A stretch of DNA of 64,000 nt, from the NCBI RefSeq assembly GCF_017352195.1, contig NZ_CP071445.1, forward strand, positions 248,001 to 312,000, written 5' to 3'. The position numbers and the translations under genes are program-made. Under the pieces are notes generated by a model. It had not been told where the DNA came from. It saw only the letters and a program-made list of their open reading frames with translations, and ran no database searches. Below, piece after piece: positions 903-24,812 of the stretch (its first letter is position 1; each line of letters begins with the position of its first letter). Source of the DNA: Sedimentibacter sp. zth1. GTDB taxonomy: Bacteria > Bacillota > Clostridia > Tissierellales > Sedimentibacteraceae.

Positions 903-2240
903 TTATTCACCAGCAACAGCTAAACCTTTAAATTTGATAGAAGGACTTCCAATGTATGATTCACCAGGTAAACCAAATTTTAAATCATTAGCTATGTCTT
1001 CAATGCTTTTTATCATCTCAAAGAAATTGCCAGCAACAGTAATTTGTTCTACTGGATGCTTAATTGTACCATTTTCAATCAAATATCCAGATGCAGATAA
1101 AGAAAAATCTCCCGATATTGCATTAAGTCCAGCATGTAATCCATCAAGTCCAGTTATCAGCAAGCCTTCTTTAACACTATTCATTATATTTTCCAATGAA
1201 TTATTACCATTTTCAATATAGAAATTAGAAGGACCTATCCTAGAACTACCAAGAGAGTTACCTGTTGTTTCAACATTATCTTTTTTAGCAGTTTTTAAAT
1301 TATATAGATAGCTTTTTAATATTCCTTTGTCTATTAGTTTTTTATACGTACAAGCTGCACCTTCAGAGTCATATGATCTTGATGCAAGGCCACATTCCAT
1401 AAATGGATCATCAACTATTGTTAACATGGAAGAAGCTATTTTTTTATTTAACTTGTCTTTAAGCAATGATAGATTTTTTTGAACATTTTCAGCTGAGAAA
1501 ATAGATGTAAGTGAACTAAGCAAATCACCCATAGTTTCATTTTTAATGATAATTGGATAATTACCTGATTTAATACTTTTAGCACCAAGCATCGATAAAG
1601 CTTTTTTAACAGCTTCAGTAGCCATTTCTTCTGGGTCTAATTTTGAAAAATCTCTACCGCATGCAAAAGAATAGCTAGATTTTATTTGTTTTCCATCATT
1701 TGCAACAACACCTATGTAAGATAACACATAGTTACTTTTATTTTGTAAATTCAAACCTTTTGTGTTGGCAAGGATAGATTCTTCAGTCCCATCAATATAC
1801 ATACAATCTTGAACTTGAACAATTCTTTTGTCTAATGAGTATGCAATTTCTTCTGCTTTTTTTGCAAAGTTAATCTTGTCTATATCGGATACTTTTTCTG
1901 AATTTTCGTTATATGTATTAACACTTGTATAATTTTTGGAGCCTGCAAATATTTCAACCTCATCGCTTGAACTTATGATTTTTGCATTTTCTATAGCTTC
2001 ATTTACAAGCATTTCAATAGATGTTTCATCAATTTTTTCTGTATATGAGTTACCTAATTTACCATTATATATTACTTTAAGAGATAGCTTGTTATTATCA
2101 CTTAAACTGTAGTTATCAATTTCTTGCTTAAATATTCCTATGTCAAAAGAGGTATCACTATTATAGGATATTTCCATATCCTGAAGACCAAGTTGTTTTC
2201 CATATTGAAAAATTTTATCGATTAATATTTTCTTTTCCAT
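903..2240 (-). CDS. TldE/PmbA-family subunit, first copy
   Basis: This 445-residue protein aligns over its length with the TldE/PmbA family, the non-catalytic partner of the TldD metalloprotease. Family landmarks are SARS-like GLASRSYDSEGAAC near residue 285, GLDGLHAGLNAISGDFSLSASGYLIENG, and the C-terminal VAGNFFEMIKSI. It has no HExxxH zinc motif, as expected for TldE. In E. coli the TldD/TldE heterodimer degrades unfolded peptides and matures microcin B17 and antitoxin CcdA. The start lies two bases after the stop of the TldD gene, behind a GAGG ribosome site, so the pair is translationally coupled. A second TldD/TldE pair lies at 60106-62813. Confidence 0.9.
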   Translation of the reverse strand: MEKKILIDKIFQYGKQLGLQDMEISYNSDTSFDIGIFKQEIDNYSLSDNNKLSLKVIYNGKLGNSYTEKIDETSIEMLVNEAIENAKIISSSDEVEIFAGSKNYTSVNTYNENSEKVSDIDKINFAKKAEEIAYSLDKRIVQVQDCMYIDGTEESILANTKGLNLQNKSNYVLSYIGVVANDGKQIKSSYSFACGRDFSKLDPEEMATEAVKKALSMLGAKSIKSGNYPIIIKNETMGDLLSSLTSIFSAENVQKNLSLLKDKLNKKIASSMLTIVDDPFMECGLASRSYDSEGAACTYKKLIDKGILKSYLYNLKTAKKDNVETTGNSLGSSRIGPSNFYIENGNNSLENIMNSVKEGLLITGLDGLHAGLNAISGDFSLSASGYLIENGTIKHPVEQITVAGNFFEMIKSIEDIANDLKFGLPGESYIGSPSIKFKGLAVAGE

Positions 2241-2242
2241 AA

Positions 2243-3628
2243 TTATTCCTCTCTTCCTCCTACAGTTATTTCTGAAACTCTAATAAGCGGCTGTCCAACA
2301 TTTGTTGGTACACTACCACTTGATGAACCACACATACCTTGTCCATATGATAAATTATCAGATATCATATCTATTTTTTTAAGTATTTCGGTTCCTTTGC
2401 CAATAAGTGTAGCACCACGAACTGGAGTAGTTATTTTGCCATTTTCTACTAGATATCCTTCTAGTACTGAAAAGTTAAATTCACCTGTACTTGGGTTAAC
2501 ACTACCACCACCCATGTAACGAGCATAAATACCACGTTCAGTATTTGCAAACATATCTTCACGCTTAGAATTACCAGAAGCAATATATGTGTTAGTCATT
2601 CTAGAAGTAGGGGCAAACTTGTATGATTGTCTTCTTCCAGAACCAGTAGAGGCATGTCCCATACGTCTACCATTCAATCTATCAATCATATATCCTTTAA
2701 GTATACCGTTTTCTATTAATACATTTTTTTGAGAAGGAGTTCCTTCATCGTCTATATTTATTGAACCCCATTCATTTGGTAAAGTACCATCATCTATTGC
2801 AGTTACAACGTCTGATGCTATTTTTTCTCCAACTTTACCTGCAAATACAGATGTTCCTTTTGCAACACTTGTTGCTTCAAGGCTATGACCACATGCTTCA
2901 TGGAATATTACTCCACCAAAACCGTTGTCTATAAGTACAGGAAATTTACCACTAGGACAGTAGGAAGCATTAACCATAGTTTTAGCTATACGTGATGCTT
3001 CTTTTCCTAATGCTTCTAAGTCATAATTTTCAATAAATTCAAATCCTCTCATAGCACCAGGTGCAAGATATCCGGTTTGCATTTCACCGTTTTTACTGGC
3101 TACTGAACTGACAACAATTCTATTTCTAACTCTTGTGTCTTCCTTCCATAATCCTTCAGAGTTTGCAACCATAATATGTTGGTTGTGGTCAAGGTGAGTT
3201 ACAGAAACTTGGCTAATTACGTCATCATAATTTTTAGCAGCGTCATATACCTTTCTCATAGCTTCAACTTTTTTTAACTTAGAAACTTTATCTGGATATT
3301 TAAGGATTTTGTGATTGTTAATTACATCTGATTTTATTAAATTCAATGTTAAATCATTGTGGCAACCAATCATTGCTTGAGCGGCTTTTTTAGCTGTCTT
3401 AATAAGTGTTTCTCTATCAGATTTGTTCGTAAAAGCGTATACACTATTAAATCCTTTGTATATTCTAATACCTACACCATAATCTCTTCCTGAAATTGTA
3501 TTTTCAACAATTCCACCAATTAGTGTTATTTGACTGTTTGTCCTATCTTCAACAAAAATTTCAGCGAAATCTCCGCTAGTAGACAATGCAGCGTTTAACA
3601 CATCTTCAATAAGTTGTTTGCTTAACAT
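2243..3628 (-). CDS. tldD: TldD-family zinc metalloprotease subunit, first copy
   Basis: This 461-residue protein carries the TldD signature GVIFHEACGHSLEA, with the zinc motif HEACGH, and a C-terminal QGMCGSSSG. Its Cys matches the third zinc ligand known from E. coli TldD. TGSGRRQSYKFAPTSRMTNT and GSVNPSTGEFNF are further family blocks. The start ATG has AAGGAG upstream. It heads a two-gene operon with the TldE-type gene. No cognate peptide substrate gene is obvious nearby, although a small Cys-rich protein is encoded about 2 kb beyond the operon end. Confidence 0.93.
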   Translation of the reverse strand: MLSKQLIEDVLNAALSTSGDFAEIFVEDRTNSQITLIGGIVENTISGRDYGVGIRIYKGFNSVYAFTNKSDRETLIKTAKKAAQAMIGCHNDLTLNLIKSDVINNHKILKYPDKVSKLKKVEAMRKVYDAAKNYDDVISQVSVTHLDHNQHIMVANSEGLWKEDTRVRNRIVVSSVASKNGEMQTGYLAPGAMRGFEFIENYDLEALGKEASRIAKTMVNASYCPSGKFPVLIDNGFGGVIFHEACGHSLEATSVAKGTSVFAGKVGEKIASDVVTAIDDGTLPNEWGSINIDDEGTPSQKNVLIENGILKGYMIDRLNGRRMGHASTGSGRRQSYKFAPTSRMTNTYIASGNSKREDMFANTERGIYARYMGGGSVNPSTGEFNFSVLEGYLVENGKITTPVRGATLIGKGTEILKKIDMISDNLSYGQGMCGSSSGSVPTNVGQPLIRVSEITVGGREE

Positions 3629-4241: not shown

Positions 4242-4748
4242 TTATTTCGTAACTATATAAGAACCTCTAACCATTAATATAGCATCGGTTTGTGCTAAAA
4301 CACCACGACCGTCGTTACGTGGAACGATTATTAAGTGATTTTTTTGTATTTCTACGTCTTGTTTGATGTCTGAAGCCAATGTAACATCTGATAAACCACC
4401 AAGATCACTTGCAATTGCAGTTACTGTTCCAGCTCTAAGAATAATTTCAACTCCGGCACCAGCAATTAGCTTCTCACCAGCAGCTAAATTAACTACTTCC
4501 AATGTAGTAGTACTTTCATCAGAATTTTCTAATTTTTTATTAAGTTCATCAATTGTTGCTTGGTTTTCTTCAGTAGTCTTTTGTATTTCTTCAATTTTAT
4601 CTAATTTGTACTGACTAACTAATTCATTAATTCTTTGATTTAAATAGCTTAAAACAATTATTGGATCGGTGTTATCTCCAGGGTCCGCACTTATTGGTAA
4701 ACACAAAACTAAAGCAATTACAAGAACTAATAATATTATTTTTTTCAA
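4242..4748 (-). CDS. Secreted protein of unknown function
   Basis: A TTG start behind GGAGGA (4754-4759) gives 168 residues. Residues 1-21 form a signal peptide (KKIILLVLVIALVLCLPISA). A coiled-coil-like Glu/Lys-rich segment spans about residues 35-80. A Gly-rich C-terminal domain follows, with AGEKLIAGAGVEIILRAG, SDLGGLSDVT and LIIVPRNDGRGV, ending in ILMVRGSYIVTK. Similar secreted proteins recur in Clostridia, but I know of no assigned function. It lies 71 bases downstream of the metal ATPase gene, separated by a short tandem repeat, so it could be read from that operon or from its own promoter. Confidence 0.75.
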   Translation of the reverse strand: MKKIILLVLVIALVLCLPISADPGDNTDPIIVLSYLNQRINELVSQYKLDKIEEIQKTTEENQATIDELNKKLENSDESTTTLEVVNLAAGEKLIAGAGVEIILRAGTVTAIASDLGGLSDVTLASDIKQDVEIQKNHLIIVPRNDGRGVLAQTDAILMVRGSYIVTK

Positions 4749-4819: not shown

Positions 4820-6721
4820 TTATTTTATATCATTATCATTAATTATTCTACTACTATTTATTAGTACAATAAAAGCCCCTATATTGTGTAAAAATGCTCC
4901 GAAAATTGGTGTAACTATTCCTGCTCCAGCTAAAAAAATCATAATTAAACTGGTGGTAAAAGATAAAATAATATTTTGATAAATAATATTTTTAGTTTTT
5001 CTTGATAACTTTATTATAAAGGGTATATTATTTAAATTATTGTTCATTAAAGCTATATCTGAACTTTGAATGGCTGTATCTGAACCCATTGCACCCATAG
5101 CAATGCCAATATGTGCCTCAGACAATGCAAGAGCATCGTTTATACCATCACCAACTACTCCTACAATATAATTTTCCTTAGCTTCTTTTACAATAGATAA
5201 TTTCTCCTCCGGCAATAGTTCACTATACATAATATCTGCACCAACTGCATTTTGGATTTTTTCTGCTGCTAGGTTATTATCGCCAGTTAATATACATGTC
5301 TTTTTTATTTCCAATTTTTTTAATTCTTGTATAGCTTCACTTGCTTCGTCTCTAGGAGTATCTTTAAATATGATACAACCTATTATATTTTTGTTTTTTA
5401 TAACCCAATTTGTAGTTCCAGTAGATTCATATTCATCAGTTAAATCATAGCCCAATGACTTAATCCATCTATAATTGCCCAAAATAATTTCATTGTTGTT
5501 TTTAGTACCAATAACACCTTTCCCGATTATTTCATTGACTGTATAATCTTTATCAAAGTTTATATTTTTGCAAAGTTTAACAATAGATTTTGACACGGGA
5601 TGCAATGAATTGTGTGCTACGCACGCTGCAATTGAAATAAGTTCATCAAATGTTTTTGCAGTTTGAAGATAATAACTATTTGCAAGCATGTCTCCATTTG
5701 TTATAGTACCTGTTTTGTCAAATACTATATAATTTACTTTTGATAAATACTCTACAAAAGATGAATTTTTTATTAGGATACCTTTTTTTGTGGCATTTGA
5801 CAATGCAGCTATCATTGGAGCAGAGCTAATTAGCATATGACCACATGGACAGCTAACAACTAAAACTGCTATTGCTCTAGAAATATTTTGAGAAAAAATC
5901 CATACAATGATTGATACAACAATTGCTAGTGGAATATAGTATTTCATGAATTTATCAACTATGTGCGTTTCTGGTAATTTAATATTTTCACCATCTTCAA
6001 GTAGTTTAACTATCTTTTGAAACGAGGTATCTTCAAATTGTTTATTTACTTTTACTCTTATTACTCCTTGTATGTTTGTAGTACCTGCATAAACCTTATC
6101 TCCTACTACAACAGTTTTGGCAAGTGGTTCACCTGTTAAAGATTTTTCATCAATACTTGAAATTCCGTTAACAACTTCACCATCTATAGGCAAAGCCATA
6201 CCTGGCATAATAACTATTACATCATCAATTTTCAATGATTTTGCATCAACATTATTTGTTTTACCATCTGTAAATAGTATAGCAGTAGATGATTGCATCT
6301 TTTTCAAACCTTCAATTGCTTCTCTGCCACCCATAATACTCTTTTCTTCTAAAAAGTGTACAAATGTCAATATTACAGGTATTAGTATTGCAACTGTATA
6401 TTGATTATCTAAAATGGCAACAATTATGGCGATTGAAACAAGTATTTCCATTGAATGTTTCAGTTCTTTATCAATCAGTCCTTTGATTGCAGTAACAAAA
6501 ATAGGTACACTTATAACTATTATTCCTAATATGTATATGAAACTTGTTACAACAGTTTGATCTTTAAATAATTTTGAATAAATTATTCCAGAAACTAAAA
6601 ACATTAGGGCAAATAGCATACCGAGTATATCTTTCTTAAATTTTCTAATTTCTTTATTTGTCATATAATGTTTATCATAGTTTTTTAAAGAATCTCCAAC
6701 CATGTTTTCTATATCTTTCAT
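4820..6721 (-). CDS. P1B-type metal-transporting ATPase with CPCGH motif
   Basis: The 633-residue protein has all P-type ATPase hallmarks: SLTGEP near residue 195, the phosphorylation loop DKTGT at Asp335, the P1B-specific HP dipeptide at 374-375, TGDN, and GDGINDALAL. The metal-binding transmembrane motif reads SCPCGHMLISSAP (Cys291-Pro-Cys293-Gly-His295), instead of the common CPCA of zinc, cadmium and copper pumps. The last helix reads HNIGAFIVLINSSRI. There is no N-terminal heavy-metal-associated domain. Metal specificity cannot be read from this; a divalent soft metal such as zinc is an inference. It is the last gene of an operon with three SPFH proteins, starting 8 bases after the previous stop behind a perfect AGGAGG. 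Confidence 0.92.
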   Translation of the reverse strand: MKDIENMVGDSLKNYDKHYMTNKEIRKFKKDILGMLFALMFLVSGIIYSKLFKDQTVVTSFIYILGIIVISVPIFVTAIKGLIDKELKHSMEILVSIAIIVAILDNQYTVAILIPVILTFVHFLEEKSIMGGREAIEGLKKMQSSTAILFTDGKTNNVDAKSLKIDDVIVIMPGMALPIDGEVVNGISSIDEKSLTGEPLAKTVVVGDKVYAGTTNIQGVIRVKVNKQFEDTSFQKIVKLLEDGENIKLPETHIVDKFMKYYIPLAIVVSIIVWIFSQNISRAIAVLVVSCPCGHMLISSAPMIAALSNATKKGILIKNSSFVEYLSKVNYIVFDKTGTITNGDMLANSYYLQTAKTFDELISIAACVAHNSLHPVSKSIVKLCKNINFDKDYTVNEIIGKGVIGTKNNNEIILGNYRWIKSLGYDLTDEYESTGTTNWVIKNKNIIGCIIFKDTPRDEASEAIQELKKLEIKKTCILTGDNNLAAEKIQNAVGADIMYSELLPEEKLSIVKEAKENYIVGVVGDGINDALALSEAHIGIAMGAMGSDTAIQSSDIALMNNNLNNIPFIIKLSRKTKNIIYQNIILSFTTSLIMIFLAGAGIVTPIFGAFLHNIGAFIVLINSSRIINDNDIK

Positions 6722-6729
6722 AACTCCTC

Positions 6730-7683
6730 CTAAGGCAATACTATAACTGGGGATTTACCATCTGGAACTATTATAGAAGTACCCATCTTGTCAAGTATTT
6801 TAATTACCCTTTGCCTGAAAACACTATTAATTACCGAGCTTTCATTTTTGGTATATTGTTGATATAATCCATTGAATTCTGCTATTTCTTTCTTTGCTTG
6901 TGATATTTTTTCAAATTGATTTGTTTTAGCTGTTTGTAAATAATTATTAGCATCTGCTTCAGATTTTAATATTGTAACCTCTCTATATTCCTTAGCATTT
7001 TGAATTAGAGTTTCTTTTTTAACTGAAGCATTATTTACTTGTTCAAAATACTCTTTTGCTTCAGCAGGAGGTATGATTTCAGTCAATTCAATATTTGTAA
7101 CTGAAACTCCACAATCTAATTGGTGTAAAATCCTTTGCGTATTGTTGATTAAATCAGAAGACATTTGCGATTTGCCACTTGTCAAAACACTATCAATATC
7201 TAAGGATGATATTATTGATGTTAATTCACCACTTACAACGCCATCAATTAATTTATCTATATACTTATAATACAATGCATATCTAATTGGTTCATCTATA
7301 ACATATTTTAATTTAGCATTTATAAATACGATATTTGAATCACCAGTTATTAAGTATCCATTACTTTTTATATCATCAGATATAGTTGCTCCATAAGAAT
7401 AATGCGTTTTAATATTTTTTTCTTGTACAGTTTTAACTGGTACTTTTATTACTTCATCAATAAAAAAAGGTAAGGCAAAATGTAAACCTGGTTGTTTTAT
7501 TTGTTGTTGTTGCGTTACACCTACTAATTTACCAAATCTTAAAACAACTGCTACTTCATTACTTTCAACTCTAAAAATACCTGAAAGCAAGATAAGCAAA
7601 CATGCACCTGCTATAATCCATTTAAAATACTTTATTATATATACTATTATATTAGTAAAATTATCAAAATTTTTATTATCCAT
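6730..7683 (-). CDS. SPFH-domain membrane protein (HflK-like)
   Basis: This 317-residue protein has one N-terminal helix (about 20-40: KWIIAGACLLILLSGIF). The SPFH domain begins with SNEVAVVLRFGKLVG and includes PGLHFALPFFIDEVIKVP. The block YLITGDSNIVFINAKLKYVI is typical of HflK rather than HflC. An alanine, lysine and glutamate-rich helix follows (about 215-270). HflK/HflC assemble into membrane cages that organise membrane proteins such as FtsH. The gene lies between an HflC-like gene and the metal ATPase, with 8-base spacings on both sides, suggesting one functional unit. Confidence 0.88.
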   Translation of the reverse strand: MDNKNFDNFTNIIVYIIKYFKWIIAGACLLILLSGIFRVESNEVAVVLRFGKLVGVTQQQQIKQPGLHFALPFFIDEVIKVPVKTVQEKNIKTHYSYGATISDDIKSNGYLITGDSNIVFINAKLKYVIDEPIRYALYYKYIDKLIDGVVSGELTSIISSLDIDSVLTSGKSQMSSDLINNTQRILHQLDCGVSVTNIELTEIIPPAEAKEYFEQVNNASVKKETLIQNAKEYREVTILKSEADANNYLQTAKTNQFEKISQAKKEIAEFNGLYQQYTKNESSVINSVFRQRVIKILDKMGTSIIVPDGKSPVIVLP

Positions 7684-7691
7684 AACATCAC

Positions 7692-8570
7692 CTAATTTAA
7701 ATTTTCAATTATATCAAATGGAGAATCCTCTTGCCTCATTATGATAACTGTATTTGGATTCACTGAATTTTCAAGTGCTATCAGTTTTTTTAAGAATATA
7801 AATAGCTCTGAATTTTTATCATATGCTTCACCATAAAGTTGGGCAATTTGTTTCTCTGTTTCAGCATCTATTTGTGCTGCTTCTATTTGACCATTTGACA
7901 ATATTTCTGCAGCATCAGCATTTGCTTGACCTTCTATTATAGCTGCATCTCTATTTCCTTCTGAAATAAATTTAGAAACATATTTTTGTCTATCGGCTAT
8001 CATTTGGTCAAATACACTTTGAATATTTGCAGACGGTAATGCTAACCTTTTTATTTTTAATGTACTTATATTTATTCCATAGTTTTCTAATGCAGCAGTA
8101 GAAACTTGCTTTTCTATTTGCTTTGATATTTCATTTATTTTTATGCTTTCCAAATCTGTAGAAACCAAAGCAGATAATTTATAGTTTCCAAGTACACTGT
8201 TTTTTATATTTGCAACTAAATCATTCAAATGCTTTTGAGCGACAAAAGTATTTTCTACACTAGTATAATATTTTTCTGTATCACTAATATTCCATACTAA
8301 ATATGTTTGTAAAATAATATTTATTTTATCATTAGTCAATGTTTCAGTAAATCCTGAATCCATATATTGATTTCTCTTGTCATATACAATAACTTTATCA
8401 ATAGGTGCTGGTAATTTAAAATGCAATCCTGATTCTATATATATATCCTTTATTTCTCCAAATCTTGTTACAATCGCACATGAACCTTCTCTTACTGTAA
8501 ATGTAAAACCAGTAACTATAACTATTAATATAAATAGAATTAAAAATATCCATTTTAGTTGTTTTTTCAT
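7692..8570 (-). CDS. SPFH-domain membrane protein (HflC-like)
   Basis: The 292-residue protein begins with a single membrane helix (residues 7-27), followed at once by FTVREGSCAIVTRFGEI, the start of an SPFH domain. It continues with SGLHFKLPAPIDKVIVYDKR and a region in the style of HflC (TNDKINIILQTYLVWNI). An Ala/Glu/Gln-rich helix at about 200-245 should mediate oligomerisation. AAGGAG precedes its ATG. It is the second gene of the SPFH-ATPase operon. A role as scaffold for the ATPase or as protease modulator is inferred from family knowledge, not shown by the sequence. Confidence 0.9.
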   Translation of the reverse strand: MKKQLKWIFLILFILIVIVTGFTFTVREGSCAIVTRFGEIKDIYIESGLHFKLPAPIDKVIVYDKRNQYMDSGFTETLTNDKINIILQTYLVWNISDTEKYYTSVENTFVAQKHLNDLVANIKNSVLGNYKLSALVSTDLESIKINEISKQIEKQVSTAALENYGINISTLKIKRLALPSANIQSVFDQMIADRQKYVSKFISEGNRDAAIIEGQANADAAEILSNGQIEAAQIDAETEKQIAQLYGEAYDKNSELFIFLKKLIALENSVNPNTVIIMRQEDSPFDIIENLN

Positions 8571-8589
8571 TTTTATCTCCTTTTACATG

Positions 8590-10722
8590 TTATTCATTAA
8601 GTATAATTGGATTTTGTGAACCATATATATATCTGGACAAATCATCTCCTATATTGGGAGAAAACACATATACTTTTTTATTCTTAATAATTTTCTCATA
8701 AGTATTTAGATATTTGTTTAGCCTAAAGCTAGAAGGATTAATTTTGTACGCTTCTAATGCTGCATAGTACACAGCCATTTCTGTTGAGGCTTCTGTTACT
8801 CTTTCTTTTTGTTTTTTTTGTGCGTTAATAATTGATGTTTCACTAGCTTGTTTAGCCTCTATTATTATTTTTTCTGCTTCAGTTTCTGCTTTTGTTATAA
8901 TTGCTTGTTTATCAATACTTGCATTGACAACTTTTTGGTATACATCAGCAATTTGAACTGGTGGATGTATACTTTCTATTATTACTTCATTAACTTTTAA
9001 ACCAAGTTTGCTTTCTTTACTAAATTCAGACAATTCTTTCTGTAGAGACATTGATAAATTACTTCTATCTATAGTTAAAAATGTATCTAAAGTAGTATTA
9101 ATAGTTCTATTCATTAATATTTCATATGCTTTTGCGTTTAACATTTCTTCAGGTTTTGAAAAATTTGTTAAATATGTGTATAAATCATCTATATAGTACA
9201 TTAATTTAACATTGATGGATATTAACTCATTTCCGTTTCCCAAAAGCAAACTATATTCTCCTCCGTCATGTTGCTGTGTCCATAGAAAATCTGTTGATTC
9301 TGAGGATTCATATCCAATTTGCATGTTTTTAATTCGTTTCACATCGTAAATTTCCACTTTTTCTATGGGCCAAGGAAATTTAAAATGTAAACCCTCGTTT
9401 ACAACAGAATCTTGTGAAATTTGTCCAAATCTATATACTATAGCATTTTGATATGGTTTTACGATAAACAATGATGTGGCTAATAAAATAGTTATGCATA
9501 TGCCTATTGCAAATACTGGAATTGTTTTTGCTATGTACTTTAAGCTCCAAAGTGATTTTAGTGATATACTAGTGTAGCTTTGTATAACATCAAAGATATT
9601 TTCTTGAGTTTTTGAATTATTTGTTTGCAAGTTAATATCATGTCTATGTAAGAATGGTAAAATATTATAATTAAATTCTACCAATACATTTTTCTTTATT
9701 ACTGATAAAACAAGTGATACAGTGAAAGAAAGTGTCAAATATGTTGCTATAATTGTAAAAATATAGGGTAATGCTTTTATAAAACTAATTTTCAACATAA
9801 TATTTAATGATATTGTGACTGCTGTAATTAAACACATTACTCCGGAAATAAGCAATATATTTGAAATAAATGTATGTGCTTGCTCATCTTTTTTCTGAAT
9901 AAAAATTTTTCTAATTACTAGCAATGCACAAGAAGAAATTAGTATAATAGAAACATGTGTGTATGAGTATGTAAAGTAACTTATGCTCCATTTTAACGGA
10001 TAATCTATATAAAAATTTTTTATAAAATTCAAACTAACAAAAAATAATATTAACAAATATGCTATTACAATAATATTTTCTGCTTTTGATTTCTTGTCTG
10101 TATCAATATTTTGTTGCGTATCATCTTTTTCATATTGTATATTGTGCAAATTTGTAGCTACATCTTTAGCGTCGTTTTCGGTTTTAGTATCAATTGTTTT
10201 GGTTTTTTCTTCTATTTTTTCATCTGCAAAAATATCTTTCTCTTGTTTAGTAGCTTCGGTTTTTAATCTTGTAATTCTATCGATAAACTTAGTTATAATA
10301 TTGTTAGTTTTATCTGTTTCATTAAAATTTTCTTCTTCGAATATACTACAATTATTTTTCTTTGCTTGTTCTTTACTCATATTGTCATGTGTATCTTTAG
10401 TTTTTATAGTCTCATAGTATTTTTTTTGATCTTTGCTATCTACATTAATTTTATTTTTACTATATTCATCATTTTTGTCATCTTCATCACCAAATAGTAT
10501 TATATTTTTTAAATAAATGAAAAATGCTATTAATAAAAGCAATTTAAACATATAAAATAAAATACTTGATAATTGACTTAAAATTATTGATGTTCCACCA
10601 TACAATGATATTATTTTAATAGTAGAAATAACAAAAGCTAAAATTATTATTGGAAGAAAATTAAGATTTCTAATTTTTTTATCTTTAGTTATTTCATTTT
10701 TATTATCATTTTCATTCTTCAT
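8590..10722 (-). CDS. HflK-like SPFH protein with long polytopic N-terminal extension
   Basis: At 710 residues this is about twice the usual HflK length. Residues 20-77 hold two hydrophobic helices. Residues 78-213 form a highly charged, low-complexity linker rich in Lys, Asp and Glu. Residues 214-342 hold about four more membrane helices, and a further helix at 400-420 leads into the SPFH domain (YQNAIVYRFGQI at 424-435, GLHFKFPWPIEKVEIYD at 444-460). The block LLLGNGNELISINVKLMYYI is HflK-like. A coiled-coil region with KAETEAEKIIIEAKQA follows. It is the first gene of the operon, behind a recognisable promoter. What the extra membrane domain does is unknown. Confidence 0.85.
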   Translation of the reverse strand: MKNENDNKNEITKDKKIRNLNFLPIIILAFVISTIKIISLYGGTSIILSQLSSILFYMFKLLLLIAFFIYLKNIILFGDEDDKNDEYSKNKINVDSKDQKKYYETIKTKDTHDNMSKEQAKKNNCSIFEEENFNETDKTNNIITKFIDRITRLKTEATKQEKDIFADEKIEEKTKTIDTKTENDAKDVATNLHNIQYEKDDTQQNIDTDKKSKAENIIVIAYLLILFFVSLNFIKNFYIDYPLKWSISYFTYSYTHVSIILISSCALLVIRKIFIQKKDEQAHTFISNILLISGVMCLITAVTISLNIMLKISFIKALPYIFTIIATYLTLSFTVSLVLSVIKKNVLVEFNYNILPFLHRHDINLQTNNSKTQENIFDVIQSYTSISLKSLWSLKYIAKTIPVFAIGICITILLATSLFIVKPYQNAIVYRFGQISQDSVVNEGLHFKFPWPIEKVEIYDVKRIKNMQIGYESSESTDFLWTQQHDGGEYSLLLGNGNELISINVKLMYYIDDLYTYLTNFSKPEEMLNAKAYEILMNRTINTTLDTFLTIDRSNLSMSLQKELSEFSKESKLGLKVNEVIIESIHPPVQIADVYQKVVNASIDKQAIITKAETEAEKIIIEAKQASETSIINAQKKQKERVTEASTEMAVYYAALEAYKINPSSFRLNKYLNTYEKIIKNKKVYVFSPNIGDDLSRYIYGSQNPIILNE

Positions 10723-23261: not shown

Positions 23262-24812
23262 TTAATTTGCTTGTGCTTTGTGATTGAATTGGTCAAATAT
23301 AGTATCTAACATTTTAGAATCAATTGTTTCATGTTTAAGTAAGTAGTTCGCTATATACTCTATTAGTGATTTATTGTTTTTTATTAAAATTAATGCTCTT
23401 GCATATAATTCTTTAGATAATTCAGTTGCTTCTTTTTTTATTGGTTCTGCAAAATATTTGAAAAGTTGTTCATCAACAAATACATTTTCTAATTCCTTGC
23501 TCATACCATAGCTGCAAATAATTTCATAGGTTATATTGGTTGCTTCTTTTAAATCACTTGAAGCGCCTGATGATATTTCCCCAATAAAAACTTCTTCAGA
23601 TGCTCTGCCTGCCAAAAGTATAATAATTCTATTGTATAGTTCGTTTTTAGTGTATAAATATTTATCCTCAATAGGAAACTTTATAACATAACCTAATGCT
23701 TTATCTCTTGGAATAATTGATACTTTTTGAATTTTATCTATATCTAGTATTTTAGCTGCAATTGCATGACCAGCTTCATGGTATGCAACGGTTTTCTTCT
23801 CTATCTTGCTAATAGTTGGGTTTTTAATTTCTAACCCTGCTGCAATTTTTTCAATTGCAAACTCAAAATTTCCCTGTATAATTTTTTTGCTTTTATCTCT
23901 TATTGCTTTAAGAGCAGCTTCGTTTGCTATATTTGCAAGTTGTGCACCAGAAAATCCATGGGTTTTGTTGGCTATATCTGATAATGATACGTCTTTATCA
24001 AGTGGCTTGTTTTTAGTGTGAACTTCTAATATTTTTAATCTAGTGTTAAAATTTGGATTTCCAACATAAATTTTTCTGTCAAATCTTCCTGGTCTTAAAA
24101 GTGCTTCATCCAATAAGTCTAGTCTATTGGTTGCAGCTATAACTATTACATTATTTGAGTTATTAAATCCATCTAGTTCAACTAGAAGCTGATTCAAAGT
24201 TTGGTCTTTTTCATTGTTGCTTTCAGAGTTGCGCTTGCTGCCTAGAGCATCTATTTCATCAACAAAAATGATACTTGGAGATTCTTTTTTTGCCTTCTCA
24301 AATAGTGTTCTAACTCTTTTAGCTCCAACGCCTACGTATTTCTCAACAAACTCAGAACCACTTGCGTATATAAATGTAGCTTTTGCTTCACCTGCTATAG
24401 CTTTAGCAAGTATAGTTTTTCCAGTACCAGGCGGACCATGTAGTATAACACCACGAGGTACTTTTGCATCCATTGCTGTGTATTTTTTGTCGTCATTTAG
24501 GTAGTCAATTATGTCGTCAAAGTCTTCTTTTATTTCTTCCAACCCTGCAATATCATCAAAAGTAAATTTAGAAACTTCAATATCAGTTTTTTTCTTTTCG
24601 AAGTTATTGATAGAGACTGGTTGCTGATCAGAAATGTCGGTGTAATTATCATTACCTTTTTTTGATTTAAAGTAGTAACCTATCAGCATTATAGAATATA
24701 CTAATAATGGTATAAATAATATTAGTGGTAATTCAAAAAATTTCGATAAAATAAATAAGATAATATTGTAGCAAACAAATATAAAAGATAGAAGGTAAAA
24801 TCCTTTTTTCAT
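23262..24812 (-). CDS. FtsH-like AAA+ zinc protease without extracytoplasmic domain
   Basis: The 516-residue protein contains the FtsH AAA module: Walker A GPPGTGKT at 126-133, Walker B IIFVDEIDALG, and the arginine-finger region LLRPGRFDR. The M41 peptidase follows, with HEAGH at 345-349 and the third ligand region GASSDLKEAT. Two membrane helices (about 5-22 and 27-48) are separated by only a few residues, so the roughly 70-residue extracytoplasmic domain of standard FtsH is absent. That explains the short length. It may be a paralogue of a full-length FtsH encoded elsewhere. AAGGAG precedes the ATG; the gene is monocistronic. Confidence 0.92.
   Translation of the reverse strand: MKKGFYLLSFIFVCYNIILFILSKFFELPLILFIPLLVYSIMLIGYYFKSKKGNDNYTDISDQQPVSINNFEKKKTDIEVSKFTFDDIAGLEEIKEDFDDIIDYLNDDKKYTAMDAKVPRGVILHGPPGTGKTILAKAIAGEAKATFIYASGSEFVEKYVGVGAKRVRTLFEKAKKESPSIIFVDEIDALGSKRNSESNNEKDQTLNQLLVELDGFNNSNNVIVIAATNRLDLLDEALLRPGRFDRKIYVGNPNFNTRLKILEVHTKNKPLDKDVSLSDIANKTHGFSGAQLANIANEAALKAIRDKSKKIIQGNFEFAIEKIAAGLEIKNPTISKIEKKTVAYHEAGHAIAAKILDIDKIQKVSIIPRDKALGYVIKFPIEDKYLYTKNELYNRIIILLAGRASEEVFIGEISSGASSDLKEATNITYEIICSYGMSKELENVFVDEQLFKYFAEPIKKEATELSKELYARALILIKNNKSLIEYIANYLLKHETIDSKMLDTIFDQFNHKAQAN

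Follow-up and report, generated by a model that had tools for sequence, protein, structure and literature searches.

A three-SPFH operon with a P1B metal ATPase in Sedimentibacter sp. zth1: a probable dedicated metal transport complex with an apparent pseudo-CDF module

HflK and HflC each span the membrane once, by an N-terminal transmembrane (TM) helix, expose a large SPFH part to the periplasm and together enclose FtsH in a cage (PMC12005517; statements on published work refer, here and below, to the passages of the cited papers that were available). In Pseudomonas aeruginosa, genes for an HflK-family, an HflC and an HflC-family protein are followed by PA2436 and then by a P-type ATPase gene, hmtA. 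Here we describe a putative operon of comparable layout in a 64,000-nucleotide stretch of the Sedimentibacter sp. zth1 genome (contig NZ_CP071445.1, positions 248,001 to 312,000, forward strand), called the window in what follows. Its four genes encode three HflK/HflC-type SPFH proteins (SPFH1, SPFH2 and SPFH3) and a P1B ATPase, and the sequence comparisons below make it probable that the three SPFH proteins form a dedicated complex with this metal pump. The N-terminal module of SPFH1 resembles a CDF zinc transporter that lacks its metal site, and is referred to as a pseudo-CDF.

The metal regulation of the P. aeruginosa locus has been studied. In a znuA mutant, expression of PA2435 (HmtA) is increased 5.6-fold and that of PA2437, PA2438 and PA2439 (HflC, HflC and HflK families) 14.4-, 10.6- and 9.0-fold, respectively, and a weak Zur site is present at the locus (PMC4542158). 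The promoter of PA2439, the first gene of the locus, is shifted by Zur (PMC8531726), and zinc depletion raises the levels of the HmtA, HflC and HflK proteins, an effect interpreted via HflB (PMC11761036). HmtA is described as a Zn/Cu importer (PMC10393844, PMC8456098, citing Lewinson 2009). The three SPFH genes also appear as PA14_33110, 33080 and 33070 in a list of FtsH modulators (PMC9431628) and as PaFlo5-7 in a study in whose main text, as available, the word 'ATPase' was not found (PMC13086221). Judging by locus layout, PA2435-PA2439 is likely the same kind of set as the window quartet. The sequence-only reading of the window, which knew of no experimental description of such a system, thus has to be amended: a locus of this type, regulated by metal, is already known from P. 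aeruginosa (PMC4542158, PMC8531726, PMC11761036), and what is unexpected is the pseudo-CDF identity of SPFH1. The available hmtA passages cover metal regulation and name neither an SPFH-pump complex nor a pseudo-CDF, and we found no paper proposing an SPFH-pump complex among the listed open-licence papers on SPFH/HflK with P-type ATPases, CDF, metal efflux or HmtA, as far as their text was available.

The four genes lie on the minus strand in the order SPFH1 (8590-10722), SPFH2 (7692-8570), SPFH3 (6730-7683) and ATPase (4820-6721), with intergenic gaps of 19, 8 and 8 bases. Open reading frames (ORFs), Pfam and NCBIfam all bear out the initial description of an HflK-like fusion, an HflC-like protein, a second HflK-like protein and a P1B ATPase. 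SPFH1 (710 aa) consists of an N-terminal module of about 390 residues (9553-10722) and a Band_7/SPFH domain (residues 419-616; 8875-9468) that matches HflK/HflC, stomatin and prohibitin in Foldseek; in a fold search with the whole SPFH1 model, all 50 top rows were SPFH or vault proteins. SPFH2 (292 aa) and SPFH3 (317 aa) each have a single TM segment, N-terminal in SPFH2. Pfam finds Band_7 in all three, with E values of 1.7e-18, 5.1e-26 and 4.6e-23. SPFH2 exceeds the NCBIfam HflC equivalog cut-off (146.1 vs 134.4 bits), whereas SPFH1 (119.7) and SPFH3 (146.0) miss that of HflK (159.4 bits). The fourth product (633 aa) has the E1-E2_ATPase and Hydrolase domains, and no N-terminal HMA domain was found by the Pfam scan. 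It is assigned to the P1B ATPases by its score above the heavy-metal P-type model TIGR01525 (489.9 vs 346.25), together with a CPC motif at 5843-5851 (SCPCGHM), which lies within a membrane segment, and a DKTGT phosphorylation motif (5705-5719); it also exceeds the cut-off of TIGR01512 (432 vs 313.5). The one-strand order of a long SPFH1 gene, SPFH2, SPFH3 and P1B with short gaps defines the quartet type to which the window operon belongs.

One shared promoter for the four genes is plausible. The best minus-strand sigma-70-like site upstream of SPFH1 (10829-10801, TTGACA-17-TATATT) is a consensus match at 11 of 12 positions, with TG before the TATATT box, in a scan where such sites are not enriched (67 vs 59.5 expected from shuffles, standard deviation 8.5). 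The sole minus-strand terminator-like site is within the SPFH1 gene (8661-8645). An operator search upstream of SPFH1 gave short palindromes in AT-rich DNA, and we claim no regulator site there.

The sequence-only reading had proposed that conserved linkage of SPFH and P1B genes be sought in other genomes, and had named its absence from related ones as a refutation. That refutation fails: such linkage is present in seven phyla. It did not recur at the loci examined in 398 genomes sampled from the phylum of the window, to which we return below. Our main tally comes from a scan of a collection of about 85,000 genomes with an alignment of plasmid quartets as query; it yielded 594 candidate stretches, of which 497 were confirmed and the best 80 kept, and it gives a query-biased lower bound on the distribution. 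The 80 loci comprise 43 with a long SPFH gene, three P1B-HflK fusions, one CDF-HflK fusion and 33 short HflK/HflC pairs. A P1B gene lies within 8 kb of the long SPFH gene at 34 of the 43 loci (upstream rather than downstream in L186 and L195, and truncated in a few where the contig stops), and near none of the 33 short canonical-like pairs. Among the nine long-SPFH loci without a P1B gene, five (L160, L163, L169, L171 and L226) reach a contig edge within 1606 bases and one (L235) is a permease fusion. Fisher's test for 34/38 vs 0/33 gives 5e-16, a value not corrected for relatedness, and chance neighbourhood of the four genes was rejected on this recurrence. In the 33 loci with three SPFH genes followed by P1B the median gaps are 15, 7 and 26 bases; starts were taken at the first possible codon, which makes some gaps negative. 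L151, which is counted among the 33, is a CDF variant and has an extra gene ahead of the pump (gap 2266).

Quartets occur in Bacillota, Pseudomonadota, Verrucomicrobiota, Planctomycetota, Lentisphaerota, Riflebacteria and Fermentibacterota. The closest to the window among the best 80 loci are in Oscillospiraceae and Blautia metagenome-assembled genomes (MAGs), in which identity reaches 59% in the ATPase and 69% in SPFH2. The same four-gene order was found by tblastn with SPFH1 on plasmids of Paraburkholderia sprentiae, Klebsiella aerogenes, Burkholderia ubonensis and Rhizobium tumorigenes, where the genes are annotated as HflK, HflC or SPFH, HflK or SPFH, and P-type ATPase; a fifth plasmid examined, from Alkaliphilus, has an ordinary HflK/HflC pair. 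In the order of the L225 genome (a Pseudomonadales MAG), the ATPase was found at E<=1e-110 in 9 of 390 genomes, each time with three SPFH genes upstream, and in one of these (L254) an extra 150-aa ORF precedes the pump. The Klebsiella plasmid quartet DNA had no match in 20,395 E. coli records (near mode), and among 274 genomes of the Pluralibacter class the ATPase was found at E<=1e-130 in the centre genome only. SPFH1 and ATPase queries against 100 relatives revealed no further quartet in the 1.5-kb flanks of the returned loci or in fuller flanks at ten places; the only one with a related three-SPFH set there is G018, where the set begins with a CDF-HflK fusion gene. We conclude that the linkage is real, and either old or widely transferred.

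The quartet proteins are also phylogenetically distinct. In a tree of ATPases over 540 aa, the 37 quartet P1B ATPases, that of the window included, form one clade (Shimodaira-Hasegawa-like approximate likelihood ratio test, SH-aLRT, 100) apart from 42 generic ones, and the three HflK-fused P1B ATPases are placed elsewhere. An H-x-L-E-E motif (searched as H-x-[LI]-E-[ED]) is present in 16 of the 37, including the window protein, vs none of the 42. Among HflC-like proteins over 240 aa, 43 quartet members fall in one clade (100/98) and 42 canonical ones in another. SPFH1 (35 rows, SH-aLRT 99) and SPFH3 (32 rows, SH-aLRT 96) each form one clade in an HflK tree from which 27 loci were left out as near-copies or fragments. 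The P1B and HflK trees were made by a quick method, and their outputs flag long branches and uneven composition. Each of the four window proteins sits in its quartet clade and not among canonical HflK/HflC proteins or generic P1B pumps. An ordinary second HflK/HflC pair was rejected on the clades and on the fusions described next.

In related three-SPFH sets, HflK-type SPFH domains are joined to metal transporters of three kinds in single ORFs. CDF-HflK fusions are found in L068 and L199 (by PF01545) and in L151 (by hidden Markov model and both metal sites), and P1B-HflK fusions in L185, L193 and L200. ArsP_1-HflK fusions, above the NCBIfam cut-off of the SO_0444 Cu/Zn efflux family, occur in three-SPFH sets in L235 (6610-8898, plus strand), L241 (6086-8443, minus) and L242 (6817-9141, minus). 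The Bryobacterales genomes of L185 and L200 each have both a P1B-fusion and a permease-fusion set. Together with the linkage, these fusions support the earlier suggestion of an SPFH set dedicated to metal transport. As observations in their own right, the genomes of L241 and L242 also hold a P1B-HflK fusion set, and a peptidyl-prolyl isomerase gene adjoins the CDF-HflK sets of L068 (3930-6140, plus strand, PpiC-type) and L151 (14053-15747, plus strand), hinting at a link to extracytoplasmic protein folding.

From the CDF fold of an orthologue's module, a profile match and the loss of the usual metal-site residues, we read the membrane half of SPFH1 as an apparently decayed CDF zinc transporter fused to HflK. 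Six TM segments precede the SPFH anchor in the window protein, and six are predicted in 42 of 46 quartet modules; the two CDF fusions that were scored, L151 and L199, likewise show six TM segments plus the anchor. The module of an orthologue, L173, modelled with 38 relatives (mean predicted local distance difference test score 85.6, predicted template modelling score 0.82), retrieved ZnT3 and YiiP as the top Foldseek rows with weak E values (0.017 and up). With VIA-align it superimposed on YiiP at Z 19.8 (root-mean-square deviation 2.8 over 201 residues), which exceeds the tool's caution threshold for helical bundles (about 13); the first 19 rows were all CDF transporters and the first unrelated row was TolQ, at Z 9.7. 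Foldseek alone being weak, the case is made by this second aligner, by topology and by profile comparison, in which hhalign gave 84-90% over 88-96 columns against CDF and no more than 0.3% against each of five other membrane sets. Homology of the N-terminus to the membrane parts of P1B ATPases (0.3%) or ArsP_1 (0.1%), and to ABC-2 permeases, an NhaP-type antiporter or DUF5693 (0.2% each), was thereby rejected, three of these five control sets being single sequences and hence a weaker test. Pfam names no family for the module (weak sub-threshold hits such as MFS_1 in one), and PF01545 has no Pfam hit in the window SPFH1.

The residues that bind metal in CDF transporters are missing from the module. 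The [DH]xxxD pattern is absent in or near the TM segments of all 46 quartet modules, the window's included, in a test that by TM prediction finds three of three CDF fusions and misses a generic CDF control (L150). It is likewise absent from the aligned TM2 and TM5 of 39 modules by the motifs printed, an alignment in which some divergent rows look shifted. A looser metal-site pattern allowing E and C matches 1 of 39 in TM2 and 9 of 39 in TM5. The CDF-HflK fusions, in contrast, carry HxxxD twice, at both metal sites, in all three cases.

The host genome (3.13 Mb, one contig) has seven Band_7 matches, which include an HflK/HflC pair of neighbouring genes away from the operon (C1:3051889-3053326); the operon is therefore an additional SPFH set and not the host's only HflKC. 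Three Peptidase_M41 (FtsH-type) matches are also present, one of them in the window, a gene for a 516-aa FtsH-like AAA-M41 protease about 12.5 kb from the operon (23262-24812, minus strand). Hints of metal handling come from other loci. Stretches with at least 5 His in 20 residues are found at 35 of 52 dedicated loci vs none of 34 canonical loci; they lie in the pump (20), in SPFH2 (8) or SPFH3 (6), or in the product of the first gene (5). The Paraburkholderia quartet lies near ZigA and zinc/metal ABC importer genes. When 90 of 174 neighbour ORFs were scanned, 11 matched ABC_tran and 11 ABC2_membrane_2, and those inspected individually came from quartets of Verrucomicrobia and Planctomycetes. 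Genes for an ABC-2 type permease and an ABC ATPase flank quartets of Verrucomicrobia and Planctomycetes (L170 8577-9806, L171 8142-9107, L182 15288-17909, L204 15548-16804 and others).

On these grounds we consider a dedicated SPFH-pump complex for transition-metal transport, probably serving uptake, a reasonably likely overall explanation of the quartet. The three HflK/HflC-type proteins would assemble into a cage or ring that is anchored in the cytoplasmic membrane and lies on its outer face, with the P1B ATPase as the pump inside or attached to this cage. SPFH1 would be the membrane organiser, its N-terminal half, a CDF fold without a metal site, packing in the membrane without transporting, and its C-terminal half contributing an HflK-type cage subunit. 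CDF and P1B transporters have their C-terminal end on the cytoplasmic side of the membrane, from where such a unit could continue directly into the SPFH anchor, as in the fusions; the three SPFH proteins would then arch as a dome above the transporter's outer mouth. On the same three-SPFH chassis, the place of the pseudo-CDF seems to be taken in relatives by an intact CDF, by a P1B ATPase or by an SO_0444-type Cu/Zn permease; the window operon encodes its pump as a chain of its own, for which the pseudo-CDF is the likely dock. If, as is likely, the quartet is orthologous to the hmtA locus of P. aeruginosa, the cargo would most likely be Zn and/or Cu, taken up under scarcity, and on this analogy uptake is the probable direction. 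The physical complex, enclosure by a cage, docking by the pseudo-CDF, metal, direction and co-transcription are steps that we infer. We put forward more tentatively a wider idea, that three-SPFH assemblies are an interchangeable chassis whose dome encloses a private outer-face chamber at the pump mouth, into which a CDF, a P1B ATPase or a Cu/Zn permease has been plugged separately, and that the quartet's original CDF decayed into a pseudo-transporter docking the P1B pump.

Several observations weigh against the complex, or against its role in uptake. Although at least about 2.8 kb is available beyond SPFH3, L203, L221 and L179 have no P1B gene. In the 398-genome phylum sample, SPFH1 matched 26 genomes (E<=1e-12); no P-type ATPase was found in the fetched flanks of the 25 SPFH1-like loci outside the host's own genome, two of which (L117 and L146) showed no domain hits at all, and none of 11 ATPase loci had an SPFH neighbour. 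Linkage within the window's own phylum is patchy, since it did not recur at the loci examined in this sample. Neither the window (at most 2 His per 20 residues) nor its nearest relatives, L157-L161, have a His-rich stretch, and the window's own N-terminal module is modelled with low confidence in the whole-protein model. The orthology of HmtA with the quartet ATPases rests on locus layout. In P. aeruginosa itself, hmtA mRNA is low and not repressed by zinc (PMC8531726), a review calls hmtA an exception to Zur binding and wants import to be confirmed (PMC10393844), and the SPFH proteins are described as largely dispensable in laboratory conditions (PMC13086221).

The main rival of uptake is a metal efflux platform, in which the same SPFH-pump complex would export excess Zn, Cd or Cu and the SPFH proteins would concentrate and stabilise the pump, as PacL does for CtpC. 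The score of the ATPase above the cut-off of the cadmium-family model TIGR01512, the exporter names of the fused transporter families (SO_0444 Cu/Zn efflux, above cut-off, and Cation_efflux/CDF) and the precedent of the PacL1-CtpC metal efflux platforms (PMC9374683) all fit this idea. It sits poorly, however, with the rise of the P. aeruginosa hmtA-locus genes and proteins on zinc starvation, with the reported import activity of HmtA, and with ZigA and a zinc/metal ABC importer beside the Paraburkholderia quartet, and we regard export as unlikely, if a serious competitor. We think it far less likely that the SPFH trio is a second HflK/HflC complex modulating FtsH, which shares a promoter with the pump since both answer metal stress and has no physical link to it. 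The HflK/HflC type of the domains, the FtsH-like gene some 12.5 kb away and the treatment of the three P. aeruginosa genes as FtsH modulators (PMC11761036, PMC9431628) would agree with such a role, but it leaves unexplained the direct fusion of HflK-type domains to CDF, P1B and SO_0444 transporters, and the host has its own canonical pair, all four operon proteins falling in separate clades. Just as improbable, or slightly more so, is a general role of the trio as lipid-ordering scaffold or chaperone, which would raise pump stability only, with no chamber and with a pseudo-CDF devoid of a role. PacL1 is indeed required for CtpC levels and has been likened to flotillin scaffolds (PMC9374683), but co-inheritance with one P1B clade and the conserved transporter-fold module suggest a specific machine.

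Some neighbouring genes can be recorded beside the proposed SPFH-pump complex. A 168-aa protein with a signal-peptide-like start is encoded 71 bases downstream of the ATPase gene (4242-4748, minus strand); it matches no family over cut-off in Pfam or NCBIfam and is not assigned to the operon. Further on, beyond the downstream end of the operon, lies a pair of neighbouring PmbA/TldD-type metallopeptidase genes (903-3628, minus strand). L203, L221 and L179 are three-SPFH sets of the quartet clade without a nearby P1B gene, and in L221 an ABC ATPase gene follows.

The quartet offers a testable client for an SPFH cage beyond HflKC-FtsH, and bears on why P. aeruginosa HmtA, a reported metal importer, travels with three HflK/HflC-like proteins. 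It provides a defined protein trio for reconstitution, with natural fusions that fix the likely geometry, and the pseudo-CDF would exemplify a transporter domain that has taken on a structural role. Should the cage prove to shape metal delivery, this would add a new layer of bacterial zinc and copper handling in several phyla, plasmids included.

Compared with E. coli HflK-HflC-FtsH, the window operon shares membrane-anchored SPFH domains of the HflK/HflC type, the SPFH1 model matching HflK/C in Foldseek, but has three SPFH genes rather than two, no FtsH gene, a transporter-fold module on SPFH1, a metal pump as partner and proteins that fall in separate clades. The mycobacterial PacL-CtpC system resembles it in that a membrane organiser is encoded with a P1B ATPase, and a metal-binding motif is found on the PacL organiser (PMC9374683, PMC13043812). 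PacL1, however, is a short DUF1490 protein and not an SPFH protein, CtpC is an exporter, and PacL1-CtpC foci are independent of flotillin; DUF1490 was absent from the eight window proteins scanned with Pfam. With CDF transporters such as YiiP and ZnT the SPFH1 module of the orthologue shares a six-TM fold, whereas the [DH]xxxD TM sites are missing from the modules. The closest studied match, by layout, is the P. aeruginosa hmtA locus, from which the window differs in having no gene between SPFH3 and the pump and no His-rich stretches, the 150-aa ORF before the pump in L254 giving that locus an hmtA-like layout; Zur control and Zn/Cu import are reported for P. aeruginosa only, with conflicts, in the passages available.

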